Source: Anaerosalibacter bizertensis (GTDB lineage: Bacteria; Bacillota; Clostridia; Tissierellales; Sporanaerobacteraceae). Taken from it: a stretch of DNA of 64,000 nt. The first letter of the stretch is position 1, and each line of letters begins with the position of its first letter. Made by a program: the position numbers and the translations under genes. The DNA lies in the NCBI RefSeq assembly GCF_009696605.1, contig NZ_VULR01000010.1:1-64000 (forward strand), given 5' to 3'. Shown here piece after piece: positions 9,310 through 39,845 of this stretch. The notes beneath the pieces are model-generated. The model did no database searches. It saw only the letters and a program-made list of their open reading frames with translations, and was not told the DNA's origin.

Positions 9310-9951
9310 TTATTTTTTATCTATTGAAATAGCTATTTTATTTCCAAGGAATTGAATACCTTGAACTAAAATAATGATTATTATAACAGAAGCCACCATA
9401 ATATTGGTTTTAAATCTATATAGTCCATACCTTATGGCTAAATCTCCTAATCCACCTCCACCTATTGCTCCGGCCATAGCTGAGTATCCAATTAAGTTAA
9501 TAATAGTTAGAGTAATTCCCATAACTAAAGAAGGCATAGCTTCTGGAATAAGTACTTTAAAAACTATTTGAGAAACTGTAGCTCCCATAGATAGGCTAGC
9601 TTCAATTACTCCTCTATCTACTTCTTTTAAGGCATTTTCAATAACCCTAGCTACAAAAGGTGCTGCGGCAATTGAAAGAGGTACAATAGTTGCAGTAGTT
9701 CCAATAGTACTTCCTACAATTATTCTAGATAGTGGAAATACCAATATCATTAAAATAATAAACGGGAAAGAACGAAGAATATTTATTATTCCACTAAGTA
9801 TTTGATTTAATAAGGGCTTTTCCCATATTCCACCTTTTTCTGTTATAACCAATAATATTCCTAATGGAAACCCTATAATCAAAGAAAATATAGTAGAAAA
9901 AAACACCATATATAATGTTTCAAGTAGTGAGGGAATTAAAAGTTCTAACAT
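9310..9951 (-). CDS. metI: Methionine ABC transporter permease
   Basis: A 213-residue permease with about five membrane helices and the EAA-type coupling loop (residues about 125-145, EASLSMGATVSQIVFKVLIP) that docks on MetN. It forms the channel of the MetNIQ importer. The ATG overlaps the metN stop as TAATG, and the SD GGAGGTGAT lies inside the end of metN, indicating translational coupling. The gene downstream in the original operon should be metQ, but an IS110 element now follows. Confidence 0.93.
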   Translation of the reverse strand: MLELLIPSLLETLYMVFFSTIFSLIIGFPLGILLVITEKGGIWEKPLLNQILSGIINILRSFPFIILMILVFPLSRIIVGSTIGTTATIVPLSIAAAPFVARVIENALKEVDRGVIEASLSMGATVSQIVFKVLIPEAMPSLVMGITLTIINLIGYSAMAGAIGGGGLGDLAIRYGLYRFKTNIMVASVIIIIILVQGIQFLGNKIAISIDKK

Positions 9952-10955
9952 TAGATCACCTCCAGTCTTATATTTTCTTTTCTAAGCCAATCTATAGCTT
10001 TTTCAATTTCATTGTCTTCACCTGAAATTTCTAGTACTAAATTTCCTATGCTTGTACTTATCAGTTCATTTATGTTTCCTGAAAGAATATTTACATCTAT
10101 ATCAAATTGTTTTACCATTTTAGAAACAATAGGTTTTTTTGCGTTTTCTCCAACGAAACTAAGCCTTAAAATTTTACTTCCAGATTTTCTTTGATAATTT
10201 ATCCCTTCTTGAGTATTTATTTTTAAAGTAGAAATAAATTCTGTAGCAGTTTTAGTTTTAGGATTAGCAAAAATCTCCTCTACTGTATTAAGTTCGATTA
10301 TTTCTCCATTTTCAATAATAGCCACCCTATCACAAATATCTTTTATAACTTCCATTTGATGGGTTATAAGTACAATAGTTAAGCCAAATTCTTTCCTAAT
10401 TTTATTTAATAATTCTAATATAGACTTAGTAGTTTTTGGATCTAATGCAGATGTTCCTTCATCACTTAAGAGTATTTTTGGATTATTAGCTAATGATCTG
10501 GCAATAGCTACCCTTTGTTTTTGTCCTCCGCTTAATTGGGAAGGATATGCAAATTTTTTATCCTCAAGGTCAACATATTCTAAAAGAGTGTTAATCTTTT
10601 TATCTATTTCATCTTTTTTCAATCCTTCTAATTCTAAAGGAAAAGCAATATTCTGATAAACATTTTTTGAAGATAGAAGATTGAAATGTTGAAAAATCAT
10701 ACCTATGTCTTTCCTTGTTTCTCTTAAATCGGTATTATTTAGATTAGTAATTTCTTTTCCATCAATAAAAATTTTTCCATTAGTAGGCTCTTCAAGTCTA
10801 TTTAAACATCTAATTAGTGTGGATTTTCCAGCACCACTTAATCCAATTATTCCAAATATTTCTCCTTTCTTAATTTCAATATTAATGTTTTTTAAAGCGT
10901 AGATTTCTTTATTATTATTTTTATATGTTTTAGATAGTCCTTCTACTTTTATCAA
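9951..10955 (-). CDS. metN: Methionine ABC transporter ATP-binding protein
   Basis: A 334-residue ATPase of the MetNIQ importer. Walker A is GLSGAGKST, the signature LSGGQKQR, Walker B ILLSDEGTSALDP. The last 75 or so residues form the NIL domain, which in this family binds methionine and inhibits transport when the pool is full. The start codon is TTG at 10955, directly after an in-frame TGA and with GGGGTG seven bases upstream. It is the first gene after the SAM-I riboswitch on the same strand. Confidence 0.94.
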   Translation of the reverse strand: MIKVEGLSKTYKNNNKEIYALKNINIEIKKGEIFGIIGLSGAGKSTLIRCLNRLEEPTNGKIFIDGKEITNLNNTDLRETRKDIGMIFQHFNLLSSKNVYQNIAFPLELEGLKKDEIDKKINTLLEYVDLEDKKFAYPSQLSGGQKQRVAIARSLANNPKILLSDEGTSALDPKTTKSILELLNKIRKEFGLTIVLITHQMEVIKDICDRVAIIENGEIIELNTVEEIFANPKTKTATEFISTLKINTQEGINYQRKSGSKILRLSFVGENAKKPIVSKMVKQFDIDVNILSGNINELISTSIGNLVLEISGEDNEIEKAIDWLRKENIRLEVI

Positions 10956-11034: not shown

Positions 11035-11172
11035 TAAAAAAACCTCTTCAAGAAGAAAGAGGCAAAATCCTCTCTCATCTTCCGGTTAATACCGCAGGAA
11101 TTAGCACCTTGCAAATTAATGCAGGCTGCCGGGCTTCATCGGGCCAGTCCCTCCACCACTCTAGATAAGAGT
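11035..11172 (-). promoter_or_regulatory. SAM-I (S-box) riboswitch before metN
   Basis: On the minus strand the aptamer starts CTCTTATC near 11171 and contains the conserved GGTGGAGGGACTGGCCC and GATGAAGCCCGGCA blocks, then GGTGCTAATTCCTGC, and closes with GATGAGAG near 11073. The expression platform is a terminator, CCTCTT with AAGAGG and a T7 tail (11062-11035). With SAM bound, such riboswitches stop transcription; when SAM is low, metN and metI are read. This fits methionine import. Confidence 0.95.
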
Positions 11173-12207: not shown

Positions 12208-12236
12208 TTGACAAAAAACTTTAAATATGATATTGT
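12208..12236 (+). promoter_or_regulatory. Promoter of the pyr operon
   Basis: TTGACA (12208-12213), 17 bases, TATTGT (12231-12236). Transcription would start about 10 bases before the first PyrR hairpin. Confidence 0.7.
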
Positions 12237-12253
12237 AAATAAAAATAAATAGG

Positions 12254-12339
12254 GCCTTTAAACTGATCCTGTGAGATCGGAAAGGGAAGCGTATAATGGC
12301 CTTGCTATATCTATGCCTTCCTTTAAGGAAGGTTTTTTT
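12254..12339 (+). promoter_or_regulatory. PyrR-type transcription attenuator of the pyr operon
   Basis: CCTTT-AAA-CTGAT-CCTGTGAG-ATCGG-A-AAGGG (12255-12286) is the PyrR-binding anti-antiterminator hairpin. The segment 12282-12289 can pair with 12317-12324 as antiterminator. The competing terminator is CCTTCC-TTTAA-GGAAGG plus seven T (12316-12339). With UMP, PyrR is known to stabilise the first hairpin and cause termination. No pyrR gene lies in the window, so it must be elsewhere. Confidence 0.85.
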
Positions 12340-12355
12340 ATGCTCTTTGGCCCGT

Positions 12356-12392
12356 TTCTTTTAAATTAGTCCAGAGAGGCTAAAAAAGGAGG
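12356..12392 (+). promoter_or_regulatory. Second PyrR-type hairpin overlapping the pyrB ribosome site
   Basis: CTTTT-AAA-TTAG-TCCAGAGAGG-CTAA-A-AAAGG has the same architecture as the first PyrR loop, with the consensus loop TCCAGAGAGG at 12370-12379. Its 3' arm runs into the SD GGAGGG of pyrB (12388-12393). No terminator follows, so binding here would be expected to block translation of pyrB. That role is an inference. Confidence 0.7.
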
Positions 12393-12399
12393 GAATAAA

Positions 12400-13323
12400 A
12401 TGTTAAAAGGTAGACATTTAATTGGTTCAGAAGATTTTACAATAAGGGAATTAGAAGAAATATTTAAATTAGCAGATGAGATAATAGAAGATCAAGATAG
12501 TTTTTTAGATTCTTGTCATGGAAAGATATTAGGAACTCTTTTTTATGAACCTAGTACTAGAACTAGATTGAGTTTTGAATCTGCTATGTTAAGGCTTGGA
12601 GGTAATGTAATTGGTTTTTCAGAAGCAGCTTCAAGTTCTGTAAAGAAAGGTGAAAGTATTCCAGATACAGTAAGAACTGTAGGTTCTTATGCAGATATTA
12701 TAGCTATGAGACATCCAAAAGAAGGAGCACCTAGATTGGCTTCTTTTTATTCACCAGTCCCTATCATAAATGCTGGAGATGGTGGACATCAACATCCAAC
12801 TCAAACACTTACCGATCTTTTAACTATTAGAAATACAAAAGGTCAATTTTCAAATTTAACCATTGGACTTTGTGGAGATTTGAAATTTGGAAGGACTGTC
12901 CATTCACTTATAAAAGCTCTTTCAAAATATGAAAATAATTCATTTGTATTGATTTCTCCTCAAGAATTAAAAATACCCGATTATATAAAAAGTGACGTAT
13001 TAGATAAAAACAATATAAAATATATTGAAGTTGAACGATTGGAAGATGTTATGTCTAGTTTAGATATATTGTATATGACTAGGGTTCAAAAAGAACGTTT
13101 TTTCAATGAGGCAGATTATATAAGACTTAAAGATAGTTATATACTAGATTCTAAAAAAATGGATTTAGCAAGAAAGGATTTAACAGTATTGCATCCACTG
13201 CCAAGAGTTAATGAAATTAGTTATGAAGTAGATACTGATCCAAGGGCTTGTTATTTTCAACAGGTTAAATTTGGCATGTACGTAAGAATGGCTTTAATGC
13301 TAAAACTTTTGGGGGTGAGATAA
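12400..13323 (+). CDS. pyrB: Aspartate carbamoyltransferase, catalytic subunit
   Basis: A 307-residue enzyme that joins carbamoyl phosphate and aspartate to carbamoyl aspartate, the committed step of pyrimidine synthesis. The carbamoyl phosphate site is [10 protein letters not shown] (Ser52-Arg56); HPTQTLTD and HPLPRVNEI follow. It is first in pyrBICFKDE. GGAGGG lies six bases before the ATG and may be masked by a PyrR hairpin. Its stop overlaps pyrI as TAATG. The neighbouring regulatory chain suggests a PyrB6-PyrI6 type holoenzyme. Confidence 0.96.
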
Positions 13324-13754
13324 TGTTGAATATAGATAGTATTGTAAATGGTATAGTCATAGATCATATAAAAGTTGGATATGGTTTTAAAATATTTAAT
13401 TATTTAGGTTTAAATAATGCTGATTGTAGGGTTGCTTTAATCATGAATTCTCCTAGCAAAAAACATGGAAAAAAAGATATGATAAAAATTGAGAATGTTA
13501 TGGATTTAGATTTAACTATGTTGGGTTTTATAGATCCAAATATTACAGTTAATATAATTGAAAATGAAAAAATAAAAGAAAAAATCAATCTTTCCTTACC
13601 AGAAAAAATTGAAGGAGTAATAAAGTGTAAGAATCCTAGATGTGTAACTTCTACAGAGCGAAATATAAAGCATATCTTTGTCCTTACAGATGAAGAAAAA
13701 GGGATATATAGATGCCAGTATTGTGATCATATTTATGATACTTGGGAGGAATAG
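13323..13754 (+). CDS. pyrI: Aspartate carbamoyltransferase, regulatory subunit
   Basis: A 143-residue allosteric chain. The N-terminal nucleotide-binding domain includes the conserved [17 protein letters not shown] stretch; the C-terminal zinc domain has Cys102, Cys107, Cys131 and Cys134 (CKNPRC and CQYC). It binds CTP or ATP and couples them to PyrB activity. It overlaps pyrB by one base. B. subtilis lacks PyrI, while enteric bacteria, archaea and several clostridia have it, so this operon combines allosteric and PyrR control. Confidence 0.95.
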
Positions 13755-13756
13755 AT

Positions 13757-14959
13757 ATGAAATTACTTTTAAAGGGAGCTAAAGTCATTGATTATAATAA
13801 AGAATTTAAAGGTGATATTTATATTGAAGATGGTAAAATTTTAGACTTTGGCCCTGACTTGAATTATGATTGTGAAATTATTAATTGTAATGGTTTAGTA
13901 GTTATGCCGTCTTTTATAGATTTGCATACCCATTTTAGAGATCCAGGCTTCACCTATAAAGAGGATTTATACACAGGGAGTAAGGCTGCATTAAAGGGAG
14001 GATATACCTTTGTAAATCTTATGGCTAATACAAATCCAATATGCAGTAGTATGGAAGTGGTAAATTATGTGCTGGAAAAATCTAAAGAATTAGATTTAAT
14101 AGATATTCATCAAACTGTTTCTATAACAAAAGACTTTGATGGAAAGACTTTAGAGCATATAGATAGCCTAGGAAAAGAAGTTAAATTTTTATCTGATGAT
14201 GGAAAAGGAGTCCAGGAAAGTGTAGTAATGTATAGAGCCCTTAAAAAGGCTAAGGAAAAGAATTTAACTATTATAGCCCATGAAGAAGATGAGGGGATAG
14301 TTGGTGTTGATAGTAGACTTTCAGAAAACATAATGACTTTTAGAGATATAGAACTTGTGAGGGGGACAAGGGCTAAACTTCATTTGGCCCATGTAAGTAC
14401 AAAACAAGCTATAGAGGGGATAGTTAAAGGGAAAGAAGAAGGGCTACCTATTACATGTGAAGTAACTCCACATCATATATCACTTTATAATAATTCTTAT
14501 AAGGTAAATCCACCTATAAGGAAAAAAGAAGATGTATCAGCATTAATTGAAGCTATAAAAGCTGGATATGTAGATGCAATAGGGACAGATCATGCCCCCC
14601 ATAGTGTGGAAGATAAAAAGAATGGAGCTTGTGGAATATCAGGTTTAGAAACAGCTTTTTCAATTTCTTATACTACATTAGTTAGAGGTGGACATATATC
14701 CCTTAACAAGCTATCAGAAATAATGTCAGCAAATCCAGGGGAAATTGCAGATATAAACAAAGGTAGAATAGAAGTAGGTTATGATGGGGATTTAGTATTA
14801 TTAGATTTAAATAAAGAAGTAAAAATAAATAGTGAGAACTTTGTCTCTAAAGGGAAGAATACTCCTTTCAATGGAGAAAAGTATTGGGGCGAAATAATAG
14901 CCACTATAAAAAGTGGAAAAGTAAAATATAATGGAGGGATAGAAGTTGATTATAGATAG
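13757..14959 (+). CDS. pyrC: Dihydroorotase
   Basis: A 400-residue amidohydrolase that cyclises carbamoyl aspartate to dihydroorotate. Zinc ligands are seen in DLHTHFRDPG (His57, His59), later HLAHVST and the C-terminal GTDHAPHS. This is the class I form of about 400 residues. The ATG at 13757 is chosen because GGGAGGA lies six bases upstream; an in-frame TTG at 13742 overlaps the SD. It follows pyrI after two bases. Confidence 0.95.
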   Translation: MKLLLKGAKVIDYNKEFKGDIYIEDGKILDFGPDLNYDCEIINCNGLVVMPSFIDLHTHFRDPGFTYKEDLYTGSKAALKGGYTFVNLMANTNPICSSMEVVNYVLEKSKELDLIDIHQTVSITKDFDGKTLEHIDSLGKEVKFLSDDGKGVQESVVMYRALKKAKEKNLTIIAHEEDEGIVGVDSRLSENIMTFRDIELVRGTRAKLHLAHVSTKQAIEGIVKGKEEGLPITCEVTPHHISLYNNSYKVNPPIRKKEDVSALIEAIKAGYVDAIGTDHAPHSVEDKKNGACGISGLETAFSISYTTLVRGGHISLNKLSEIMSANPGEIADINKGRIEVGYDGDLVLLDLNKEVKINSENFVSKGKNTPFNGEKYWGEIIATIKSGKVKYNGGIEVDYR

Positions 14960-15815
14960 ATTATATGAAGAGGTAGAAAGAAAAGGGAATGTATGTGTAG
15001 GATTAGATACCAGTTTAGAATATATTCCATCTACTATGAAAAATAGCTATCACTCAGTAGATGATGTATTGTTCTATTTTAATAAAAGGATAATAGACGC
15101 AACTATAGATATAGTACCTTGTTATAAAGTTCAAATTGCTTTTTATGAAGCTCATGGACTAAATGGAATGTTGGCTTATAAAAAAACTTTGGACTATATA
15201 AGGAATAGAGGTGCTATAGCTATAGCAGATATTAAAAGAGGAGATATTTCTTCAACTGCAAAGGCCTATGCTAAGGCCCATTTTGAAGGGGATTTTGAAA
15301 GTGATATTATTACTTTAAATCCGTATATGGGATTTGACAGTGTTGTTCCTTATCTTGATTATGTGAAAAATAAGGAGAAAGGATTGTTTATACTTCTTAG
15401 AACTTCAAATGAAGGAGCAAAGGATATTCAGTATTTAAATATAGATGGTAAAGAAAAAGTATATAATTATGTAGGAGATAAAATTAAAGATATAGCTTCT
15501 AAACATATGGGGAAATGTGGCTATAGTTCTATAGGAGCGGTAGTTGGTGGCACCCACTTAGAAGAGGCAGATGAAATTAGGAACAGATTGGGAAATATAT
15601 TTTTTCTAATACCAGGCTATGGAGCACAAGGTGGAAGTGGTAGTGATGTAGCTTCTTACTTAAAAAATGGAAATGGTGGAGTAGTCAATTCTTCTAGAGG
15701 AATAATTACATCTTATAAAAAATATGAAGATGGAATAGAAAAGCTTGATTATTATGTTAGAAAAGCTGCCTTAGATATGAAGGAGGATATACTTAGTGAA
15801 ACCAAAACAATGTAG
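14946..15815 (+). CDS. pyrF: Orotidine 5'-phosphate decarboxylase, long (type 2) form
   Basis: A 289-residue enzyme converting OMP to UMP. The type 2 signature AIADIKRGDISSTAKAYAK carries the catalytic Asp-Lys-Asp set. N-terminal NVCVGLDTS and C-terminal IPGYGAQGG (phosphate site) also match the longer form. The start is TTG at 14946, inside the last 14 bases of pyrC, supported by GGAGGG seven bases upstream. The overlap indicates translational coupling. Confidence 0.94.
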   Translation: MIIDRLYEEVERKGNVCVGLDTSLEYIPSTMKNSYHSVDDVLFYFNKRIIDATIDIVPCYKVQIAFYEAHGLNGMLAYKKTLDYIRNRGAIAIADIKRGDISSTAKAYAKAHFEGDFESDIITLNPYMGFDSVVPYLDYVKNKEKGLFILLRTSNEGAKDIQYLNIDGKEKVYNYVGDKIKDIASKHMGKCGYSSIGAVVGGTHLEEADEIRNRLGNIFFLIPGYGAQGGSGSDVASYLKNGNGGVVNSSRGIITSYKKYEDGIEKLDYYVRKAALDMKEDILSETKTM

Positions 15816-16530
15816 TGGAAAGGTAGTATCAAATATTAAAATATTAGACAATATATATGAAATGAAATTAACTGGAGATTTTCAAGGGAATCCGGGACAG
15901 TTTTATATGCTTAGAAGTTGGGGTAAAGAGCCTTTTTTATCAAGACCCCTTAGTATTTGTAATATAGAAGGAAATTTATTGACTTTTTTATATGAGGTAA
16001 AGGGGAAAGGGACAGATATATTTTCTAAACTTAGAGAAGGGGATGTACTTAATTTATTGGGACCTTTAGGAACGGGTTTTCCACTAAATAATAAAGGGAA
16101 AATTGGAGTAGTAGCAGGAGGAATAGGTATAGCCCCAATGATCTACCTATGTAGAAGTCTAAAGGGTGACATAGATTTTTATGGAGGATTTAGAGAAAAA
16201 TCTTTTTATATGGATAGAATAGAGGAAAACATAGATAAGTTATACATTTCAACAGATAGTGGAAAAGAAGGCCACAACGGATTTATAACAGATATATTTA
16301 ATCCAGAAGAATATTCTGTAGTTTATACATGTGGTCCAATGCCTATGATGTCAAAAGTGAAAAATATTTGTGAGGGAAAGAATGTGCCCCTATATATTTC
16401 TATGGAAAAACGTATGGCTTGTGGTGTAGGAGCATGTCTTGGCTGTAGTATAAAGACTACCTCTGGAATTAGAAGGGTATGTAAAGATGGTCCAGTATTT
16501 AGAGGAGAGGAGATTATTTTTCATGACTAG
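15796..16530 (+). CDS. pyrK: Dihydroorotate dehydrogenase electron transfer subunit
   Basis: A 244-residue FAD/2Fe-2S protein that passes electrons from PyrD to NAD. The FAD motif is [10 protein letters not shown]-side motifs [11 protein letters not shown] and YTCGPMPMM follow; the cluster ligands are Cys209, Cys214, Cys217 and Cys229. GTG start at 15796 with AGGAGG nine bases upstream, overlapping the end of pyrF by 20 bases. With the class 1B PyrD next door it forms the NAD-dependent enzyme typical of Firmicutes. Confidence 0.95.
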
Positions 16531-17419
16531 TGTAGAAATGTTTGGAATAAAGTTTAAAAATCCTGTTATTACTGCTTCAGGCACTTTTACCAGAGATTAT
16601 GAAGATTTTTTTTCACTATCAAAATTAGGAGGAATATGTACAAAAGGATTAACTTTAAATGAGAAAAAAGGAAATAGTGGAATTAGAATACATGAAACTA
16701 CGGGAGGACTTTTAAATAGTATAGGCCTTCAAAATCCAGGTGTAGATAGATATATTTCTGAAGAGCTTCCTCATATGGAAAAATACGATACAGTAATTAT
16801 TGCTAACGTAGGAGGAAGCACTATAGAAGAATATGTAAAAACCATTGAAAAACTAAACAATACTAATATACCTATAATAGAGTTGAATATCTCTTGTCCC
16901 AATGTAAAAGAAGGTGGAATGGCTTTTGGTATAAAATCTGATGTAGCTTTTAAAGTAGTTAGAGAAGTGAAAAAGATATGTAAAAAGCCATTAATAGTTA
17001 AGCTTTCACCTAATGCAGAAAATATTTTGGATATGGCTTATAAATGTTGTGAGGCAGGAGCAGATGGGCTTTCACTTGTAAATACTTTTAGCGGAATGGC
17101 AATAGATATAAAAAACAGAAAGCCTGTATTTGATAATACAATTGCAGGGTTATCTGGTCCTTGTATTAAACCAATTGCATTAAGAATGGTTTACGAAGTT
17201 AGTAGGATTGTTAATGTACCTATAATTGGAATTGGGGGAATTGTAGACTATAAGGATGCTTTAGAATACATAATGGCCGGAGCTTTAGCAGTACAAGTGG
17301 GAAGTGGAAATTTTATGAAGCCAGATATATGCTTAGACATAATAAATGGTATAGAAGAATTCATGGAAAAAGAAAATATAAAATCTCTTGAAGAAATAAG
17401 AGGTATTGCTAGGAGGTAA
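16523..17419 (+). CDS. pyrD: Dihydroorotate dehydrogenase, class 1B catalytic subunit
   Basis: A 298-residue FMN enzyme oxidising dihydroorotate to orotate. It has [10 protein letters not shown] near the start, the catalytic Cys125 in [12 protein letters not shown], and C-terminal IGIGGI and GALAVQVGS that bind the FMN phosphate. The ATG at 16523 overlaps the pyrK stop (ATGACTAG) and has GGAGA ten bases upstream. The earlier in-frame start at 16487 would add residues without family support. It works with PyrK. Confidence 0.95.
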
Positions 17420-17423
17420 TATT

Positions 17424-17984
17424 ATGTTGATTGATTTACTTAAAGAAACAGAAGCTTTATTGGAAGGCCATTTTTTACTTTCATCAGGGAAACATAGTGA
17501 TAGATATGTACAATGTGCAAAACTACTTCAATATCCAGACAGTGCAGAAAAAGCTATAGGTATAATAGTGGAAAAACTTAAAGACATAGACTTTGATGTA
17601 GTAGTAGGACCAGCTATGGGAGGGGTTATTGTTAGCTATGAACTTGGAAGACAAACTGGAAAGCCTGCTCTATTTACAGAAAGGGTAGAGGGAAAGATGG
17701 TGTTAAGAAGAGGATTTAAGATAGAAGAAGGACAAAAAGTTCTTATAGCAGAAGATGTAGTGACTACAGGGAAATCTTCCTATGAAACTATACAGGAAAT
17801 AGAAAGCTTGGGAGGAGAAGTAGTAGGTATTGTGTGTATTGTAGATAGAACTACTAAAGCATTAGATATACCAGTATATGGAGGAACGAAACTTGAAATA
17901 GATACTTATGATGAAGAAAATTGTCCTCTATGCAAAAGTGGAATTCCATATAAAAAATTAGGAAGTAGAAATCTTAAGAAATAG
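17424..17984 (+). CDS. pyrE: Orotate phosphoribosyltransferase
   Basis: A 186-residue enzyme that joins orotate to PRPP to give OMP. The PRPP loop is [14 protein letters not shown]. The N-terminal [15 protein letters not shown] is the orotate-binding part. The ATG at 17424 follows AGGAGG by seven bases; the frame could open at 17406 but that codon lies before the SD. The C-terminus ends with [10 protein letters not shown], a tail seen in the roughly 190-residue Firmicute form. It is the last gene of the operon. Confidence 0.94.
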
Positions 17985-39647: not shown

Positions 39648-39670
39648 CATTATATAAAAACAGAATATTG

Positions 39671-39845
39671 CTCTCATATAATCCTGATAATATGGTTCAG
39701 GAGTCTCTACAGAATAACCAATAATTATTCTACTATGGGTTAGGATAAACAGCTAATGATTAAAAGGTATTATATTAATTTTAATCCTTATTTACATTTT
39801 AAAGAAACTGGAATTCTCTCCTATAGAGGGTTCCAGTTTCTTGTT
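39671..39845 (+). promoter_or_regulatory. Purine riboswitch (guanine type) with terminator-like platform
   Basis: The aptamer (about 39671-39741) has the three-way junction consensus: CATATAATCC, loop with ATATGG, GTCTCTACA, then CTACTATG closing P1 against CTCATA. P2 is CCTGA/TCAGG and P3 AGAATAA with its complement. The ligand-reading base before TATG is C, as in guanine-sensing members (T in adenine ones). A 12-base stem AAGAAACTGGAA/TTCCAGTTTCTT (39802-39842) is the likely expression platform, though its T tail is short. Confidence 0.85.

Follow-up and report, generated by a model that had tools for sequence, protein, structure and literature searches.

In the Bacillota, PyrR is generally described as an attenuator of transcription, and in mycobacteria as a repressor of translation. 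For Mycobacterium smegmatis, Fields and Switzer are said to have described in 2007 a PyrR-dependent translational repression, in which a hairpin lies over the Shine-Dalgarno sequence (SD) of the first pyr gene and the leader holds no attenuator; the type is reportedly defined by pyrR-dependent repression of translational, not transcriptional, fusions. TRAP control of the trp pathway includes a trpE SD hairpin. According to a published account, the pyr operon of Bacillus subtilis carries three PyrR sites that share one attenuation mechanism, each with a terminator, in agreement with the contrast drawn by the first-pass annotation of the locus described here; the PyrR loop has the consensus ARUCCAGAGAGGYU and sits atop an upper stem, and B. 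subtilis TRAP is one RNA-binding protein that acts on both transcription attenuation and translation in the trp pathway (PMC7430163).

The pyrB leader of Anaerosalibacter bizertensis resembles each of these systems in part. Like the pyr attenuators of B. subtilis (RF00515), its first hairpin combines a PyrR loop, an AAA internal loop, an antiterminator overlap, and a terminator with a pyr gene downstream and PyrR encoded in the genome; unlike in B. subtilis, the second site has no terminator and lies over the SD of the same gene. That second site matches the M. smegmatis type, being a PyrR-type hairpin over the first SD of the pyr operon, but it is located downstream of a complete attenuator. 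Unlike TRAP, to which both protein and RNA are unrelated, two separate copies of the site are present, putatively one per level of control. Two copies of one sensor element in a single leader are also known from tandem riboswitches; here, in contrast, a protein would serve as ligand, and the expression platform differs between the two copies. From sequence and comparative evidence, we consider it probable that the leader is a two-step PyrR brake, in which transcription termination would be followed by a translation block of the transcripts that escape.

Features of the leader and operon are listed below for the window, that is, the whole 64-kb stretch of DNA analyzed. R1 denotes a covariance model built from 56 hairpins, whose rows were picked by loop core and pairing and include the two hairpins of the window.

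12208 to 12213 and 12231 to 12236, + strand: likely promoter, TTGACA and TATTGT separated by 17 nt, read from the sequence as a consensus match only.
12255 to 12285, + strand: PyrR hairpin 1 (anti-antiterminator), from sequence, fold, RF00515 (40.5 bits, E 2.8e-4), and R1 (43.2 bits); lower stem CCTTT/AAAGG, AAA internal loop, upper stem CTGAT/ATCGG, loop CCTGTGAG.
12282 to 12324, + strand: antiterminator, AAGGGAAG (12282 to 12289) paired with 12317 to 12324 in the fold of 12276 to 12330.
12289 to 12343, + strand: possible read-through-only helix, GCGTA (12289 to 12293) with TATGC (12339 to 12343), enclosing the terminator in the full-leader fold.
12315 to 12339, + strand: intrinsic terminator, 8-bp stem GCCTTCCT/AGGAAGGT followed by 7 T, from the fold.
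12355 to 12391, + strand: PyrR hairpin 2, from sequence, RF00515 (44.1 bits, E 5.7e-5), R1 (50.4 bits), and conservation; lower stem TTTCTTTT/AAAAGGAG (8 bp including two G-U pairs), AAA internal loop, upper stem TTAGT/GCTAA, loop CCAGAGAG.
12386 to 12392, + strand: SD of pyrB, AAGGAGG, read from the sequence.
12400 to 13323, + strand: pyrB, first gene of the operon, an ORF of 307 aa with homologues found by similarity.
13323 to 17984, + strand: remaining ORFs of the operon, overlapping or abutting, from the ORF list.

We take the first ORF to encode the catalytic subunit of aspartate carbamoyltransferase (PyrB), and the ORFs that follow are, judging from their translations, presumably pyrI, pyrC, pyrF, pyrK, pyrD, and pyrE. 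The TTGACA of the likely pyrB promoter also occurred in the aligned leaders of relatives. Elsewhere in the window are a SAM riboswitch (RF00162, 87.3 bits; 11072 to 11171, - strand), upstream of an ABC transporter pair (9310 to 10955), and a purine riboswitch (RF00167, 78.8 bits; 39654 to 39755, + strand).

The first-pass annotation had placed two PyrR-type hairpins in the pyrB leader, and both were recovered there. It had also set the first in competition with an antiterminator, an overlap present in the predicted folds: the antiterminator (-16.7 kcal/mol, z -2.0 against shuffles) has the AAAGG of the hairpin 1 3' arm in common with that hairpin, overlaps the 5' arm of the terminator downstream (-10.7 kcal/mol, z -3.4 against shuffles), and excludes both. 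This antiterminator overlap, typical of RF00515 attenuators, was found for hairpin 1 only, and hairpin 2 was not classed as an attenuator. The description of hairpin 2 as lacking a terminator, with its 3' arm entering the SD, also held. Reading the sequence revealed neither a terminator 3' of it nor a T-run up to the ATG at 12400; 6 of the 7 SD bases lie inside the arm AAAAGGAG, and the SD ends seven bases 5' of the ATG. The layout attributed to both hairpins (stem-AAA-stem-loop-stem-A-stem) stood in part: the AAA is present in each, but the single 3' A is missing in the register used and appears in an alternative register.

By itself the loop core did not exceed chance, CCNGNGAG being found 5 times in the window against 4.5 expected. 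When flanking pairing was required as well, the 64 kb gave two occurrences over both strands, each in the pyrB leader. Hairpin 2 matches TCCNGNGAGRYT exactly and hairpin 1 keeps the loop CCTGTGAG with flanking pairs formed by other bases; both have the PyrR loop, and in both a lower stem and a purine-rich internal loop (AAA) lie below it. The AAA layout recurs among 120 collected sites, five of which were evident false matches (L056, L059, L091, L107, and L118). Both pyrB hairpins score under the curated RF00515 cut-off of 54, which is a search threshold and no biological property, suggesting that RF00515 surveys run at the cut-off miss such sites; the RF00515 model includes a terminator, and hairpin 2 is without one. 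Two sites before uraA in the same genome scored 56.9 and 54.7 bits. Over the whole genome, R1 returned four sites with E <= 0.01, and by the R1 and Rfam scans the four confident PyrR sites, which are the four best Rfam matches, are the two in the pyrB leader and the two before uraA. The genome encodes PyrR at another locus (177 aa; NF003549, 256.7 bits against a cut-off of 138), presumably after genes resembling lsp and rluD. Its best solved relatives among PDB chains are PyrR proteins, including 1a3c, which we take to be the B. subtilis protein.

We infer from this arrangement that PyrR binds both hairpins and regulates at each step, with translational repression at the second and an effect on the downstream genes. 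When UMP is plentiful, PyrR-UMP would hold hairpin 1 and block the antiterminator, the terminator at 12315 to 12339 would form, and most transcripts would stop. Read-through RNA would expose hairpin 2, which, held by PyrR, would keep the pyrB SD from the ribosome; PyrR-UMP could in this way silence mRNA that leaked through or was made before UMP rose. At low UMP, the antiterminator would form, and hairpin 2, being weak and A/U-rich, could yield to the ribosome. A block of pyrB initiation could lower expression of the whole operon, since its genes overlap or abut. Control of both transcription and translation is, in our judgment, the best-supported reading of the leader, and the sequence evidence supports it in part.

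Conservation of the second hairpin was scrutinized in an alignment of 59 nt around the pyrB start, comprising 48 leaders (44 distinct rows) that have one upstream site and lack a switch-type site. Only the first site decided which rows were taken, and a second hairpin was not required. Standard pairs were formed in 85.7% of 433 cells, compared with 48 to 65% when partners were slid, and the covariation score (0.332) exceeded that of shuffled alignments (0.249; 0 of 500 as high). Both measures were also higher than with partners slid by one column. Changes on both sides of a pair numbered 17 cells against 6.7 in shuffles (4 of 500 as high), a count that does not discriminate since a slide of -1 gives 18. 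The signal was stronger in the 56-row hairpin set, with two-sided changes in 8 of 10 pairs (70 cells against 24), in rows that had been chosen by pairing.

To place the tandem layout among relatives, three sets were combined: 60 relatives in which RF00515 was sought (match at E <= 0.05 in 55), 60 further stretches around RF00515 matches, taken from among the matches listed, and the best 80 of 589 pyrB loci from one collection scan. R1 gave 158 matches in 91 sources and 32 in the 80 pyrB loci. Matches were assigned to the downstream gene by ORF and similarity and then classed; seven without an assigned gene were left out of the counts (two in L150 and one each in L028, L163, L174, L179, and L180). 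Among 57 pyrB leaders having a PyrR site (one leader is represented twice, as L039 and L128, and the window/L124 and L021/L035 are near-identical pairs), 46 had a site near the start, at 17 to 22 nt with the SD inside the hairpin or at 47 to 54 nt, and 42 of these 46 also had an upstream site with a terminator. By class, 36 leaders combined an attenuator with a direct SD hairpin and 6 an attenuator with a near switch-type site; 2 had an upstream site without a recognized terminator plus an SD hairpin, 2 only an SD hairpin, 10 only an attenuator, and 1 a single site with no recognized terminator. Across all genes, near sites fell 17 to 22 nt (direct) or 47 to 59 nt (switch) from the start codon, with none between, and the direct spacing was kept over 11 lettered families and named Clostridium loci. 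Tandem pyrB leaders were found in Clostridium carboxidivorans P7 (L041), C. oryzae (L044), Dethiosulfatibacter aminovorans (L045), Peptoclostridium litorale (L053), C. beijerinckii HUN142 (L057), C. intestinale (L058), and C. ihumii (L095), and the direct form also in three carA leaders (L153, L162, and L172). A locus titled Calditrichales bacterium (L073) has a clostridial-type tandem pyrB leader and a pyrB that groups with a Clostridia MAG, pointing to transfer or a mislabelled genome.

A strict SD-hairpin pattern, GTCCNGNGAGRYT-(2-5)-AAGGAG-(3-10)-ATG, was found in 70 of the 249 order genomes searched and in 17 of 398 genomes drawn from the phylum, some of them common to the order set; the reversed control gave 0 in both. 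The pattern is not error-free, since L218 matches although its site (L030) was classed as an attenuator. A further PyrR site lay 60 to 250 nt upstream on the same strand in 24 of the 30 order loci listed for the pattern; many of their genomes are shared with the RF00515 survey, and the second site of L215 is known by pattern only. PyrR hairpins of any kind occurred in 219 of 299 genomes of the phylum sample. Tandem spacing below 250 nt was rare outside the order, seen by eye in three genomes among the matches listed. At L251 to L255, PyrR-type sites lie on both strands about 100 to 250 nt apart, as if each divergent transcript were controlled.

Presence of the second hairpin in related pyrB leaders, which the first-pass annotation had singled out for a survey, was thus conserved overall (near site in 46 of 57) but failed in three of six genomes from the family to which the window belongs. 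The near site occurs in all three genomes of the genus; the other three (G003 to G005) keep the first site and an SD-masking stem but have no second PyrR loop. On a quick tree built from 56 pyrB rows (L180, too short, was left out), the window fell in a 15-row clade (support 98), of which 6 rows are direct-SD and 9 have no PyrR site near the start. These absences, which extend to several other relatives, would fit hairpin 2 being a relic or spare attenuator whose terminator was lost, so that only hairpin 1 regulates and the SD overlap is coincidental, the consensus 3' arm of PyrR sites (AAAGG; in short, AAGG) being itself SD-like. We regard this as unlikely: direct-SD sites hold a 17 to 22 nt spacing across the 11 lettered families and in named Clostridium loci and pair well above the slid controls, the strict pattern is found in 70 of the order's 249 genomes against none for the reversed control, and a near-start site stands alone in some uraA leaders.

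Masking of the SD without PyrR does exist, as 10 of the 11 pyrB leaders without a near site have the SD at least partly in a predicted stem, and for 7 of these 10 (two being the same leader) at most 7 of 200 shuffles were as stable. In L040, L127, L156, and L168, from several lineages, a plain SD-masking hairpin stands in place of the second PyrR loop. The PyrR loop seems, from these predicted stems, to have been replaced while SD masking stayed, and the tree is compatible with gain or loss. Hairpin 2 could accordingly be a fixed mask that sets a low basal translation of pyrB with PyrR uninvolved at that step, and the SD is mostly paired in folding without PyrR; yet a plain stem needs neither a PyrR loop nor an AAA internal loop, and both recur in most near sites, making this reading improbable as well. 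Folding cannot show PyrR dependence here, as the free and imposed states are nearly equal: the SD of direct-SD leaders was on average 0.36 unpaired when free and 0.33 with the hairpin imposed (n = 47), and SD opening by folding was dropped as evidence for a PyrR-dependent step. Stability was likewise dropped, the region of hairpin 2 being no more stable than shuffles (z -0.16), and the case for the two-step brake is therefore based on motif, position, and conservation.

The second tandem leader of the genome precedes the uracil permease gene.

1446 to 1594 of L001 (G000:C1:318426 to 318616), - strand: tandem PyrR leader of uraA, from Rfam and R1.

This leader has an attenuator and a second PyrR site 52 nt before the start. 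The 3' arm of the second site (AAAGGGAGATTTT), a middle segment (AAAATCTCCTTT), and the SD (AAAAAGGGGG) offer two alternative pairings. When the PyrR hairpin was imposed on switch-type leaders in folding, mean SD exposure fell from 0.21 to 0.07 (n = 36), a fall that, in 25 of the 36, no more than 2 of 40 linker shuffles matched; exposure was low already without PyrR. The middle segment's complementarity to the SD, taken by itself, was often matched by shuffles (median 0.15 of shuffles, 34 leaders), and what stood out was only its pairing with the 3' arm of site 2, together with the combined test. On these predicted pairings, a three-way switch in which the PyrR arm mimics the SD, instead of direct SD occlusion, is plausible for uraA. 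The middle:SD hairpin and a T-run before the ATG may form a second terminator; fewer T occur at the corresponding place in pyrB leaders of switch type, and the T-run also occurs in L030, a uraA leader with an attenuator only and no switch. Long repeat-like insertions (GACCTAAC...) interrupt the uraA leaders L015 (after 1319) and L018 (between 1540 and 1874) with both PyrR sites intact. The uraA leaders L144, L157, and L167 have a PyrR match on the SD only and no attenuator, and their genomes probably control uraA by translation only.

In 13 of 14 uraA leaders, GATTGTRA right after hairpin 1 pairs with TTRCAATC just past the terminator. An alignment (A3, columns 32 to 45 with 137 to 146; L018 left out for its long insertion) had 97.3% of cells paired in the 8-bp part and 90.5% in the whole 10-pair helix, compared with 24 to 49% when slid; covariation was weak (45 of 500 shuffles as high). 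A pair resembling GCGTA/TATGC occupies the same place in pyrB leaders of the window's clade, and in the window alone this helix was no better than shuffles (37 of 100 as good). As a general pyrB feature the helix was rejected, own partners giving -6.3 kcal/mol and swapped partners -5.4, with 3 of 51 leaders in the best 5%. The 3' strand of the helix is transcribed only once termination has been decided, and a role, if any, would therefore follow read-through.

PyrR is oligomeric, and such a helix would bring the two hairpins together. One oligomer might then bridge them, making SD and terminator control a single cooperative event, a reading that the helix kept in uraA leaders favors; with site-to-site spacing ranging from 87 to 349 nt in pyrB leaders that combine an attenuator with a direct SD hairpin, and with the helix not general among pyrB leaders, we hold it to be very unlikely. 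A wider scheme would make pyrB and uraA variants of one two-gate device, whose SD imitates the PyrR 3' arm: site 1 would govern transcription and site 2 translation, the SD being held directly in pyrB and passed through the three-way switch in uraA (AAGGGAG arm, CTCC middle, and SD), and the read-through helix would dock both hairpins so that one PyrR assembly could read both. This scheme as a whole we consider rather unlikely, and the two-step brake remains our preferred account of the pyrB leader.

Each half of that account is known separately, as attenuation and as translational repression. An attenuator and an SD-covering site in one leader were not found described in the PyrR literature available to us; the combination may be new, with a real chance that specialists have noted tandem sites before. 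If the account is true, leaders of this kind, which combine both types of site and recur in many Clostridia, would unite the two modes of PyrR control and would explain tight repression without a second repressor. As each site can be disabled alone, why the feedback loop is doubled, whether for leak removal, a steeper response, or rapid shut-off of mRNA, could be asked directly.
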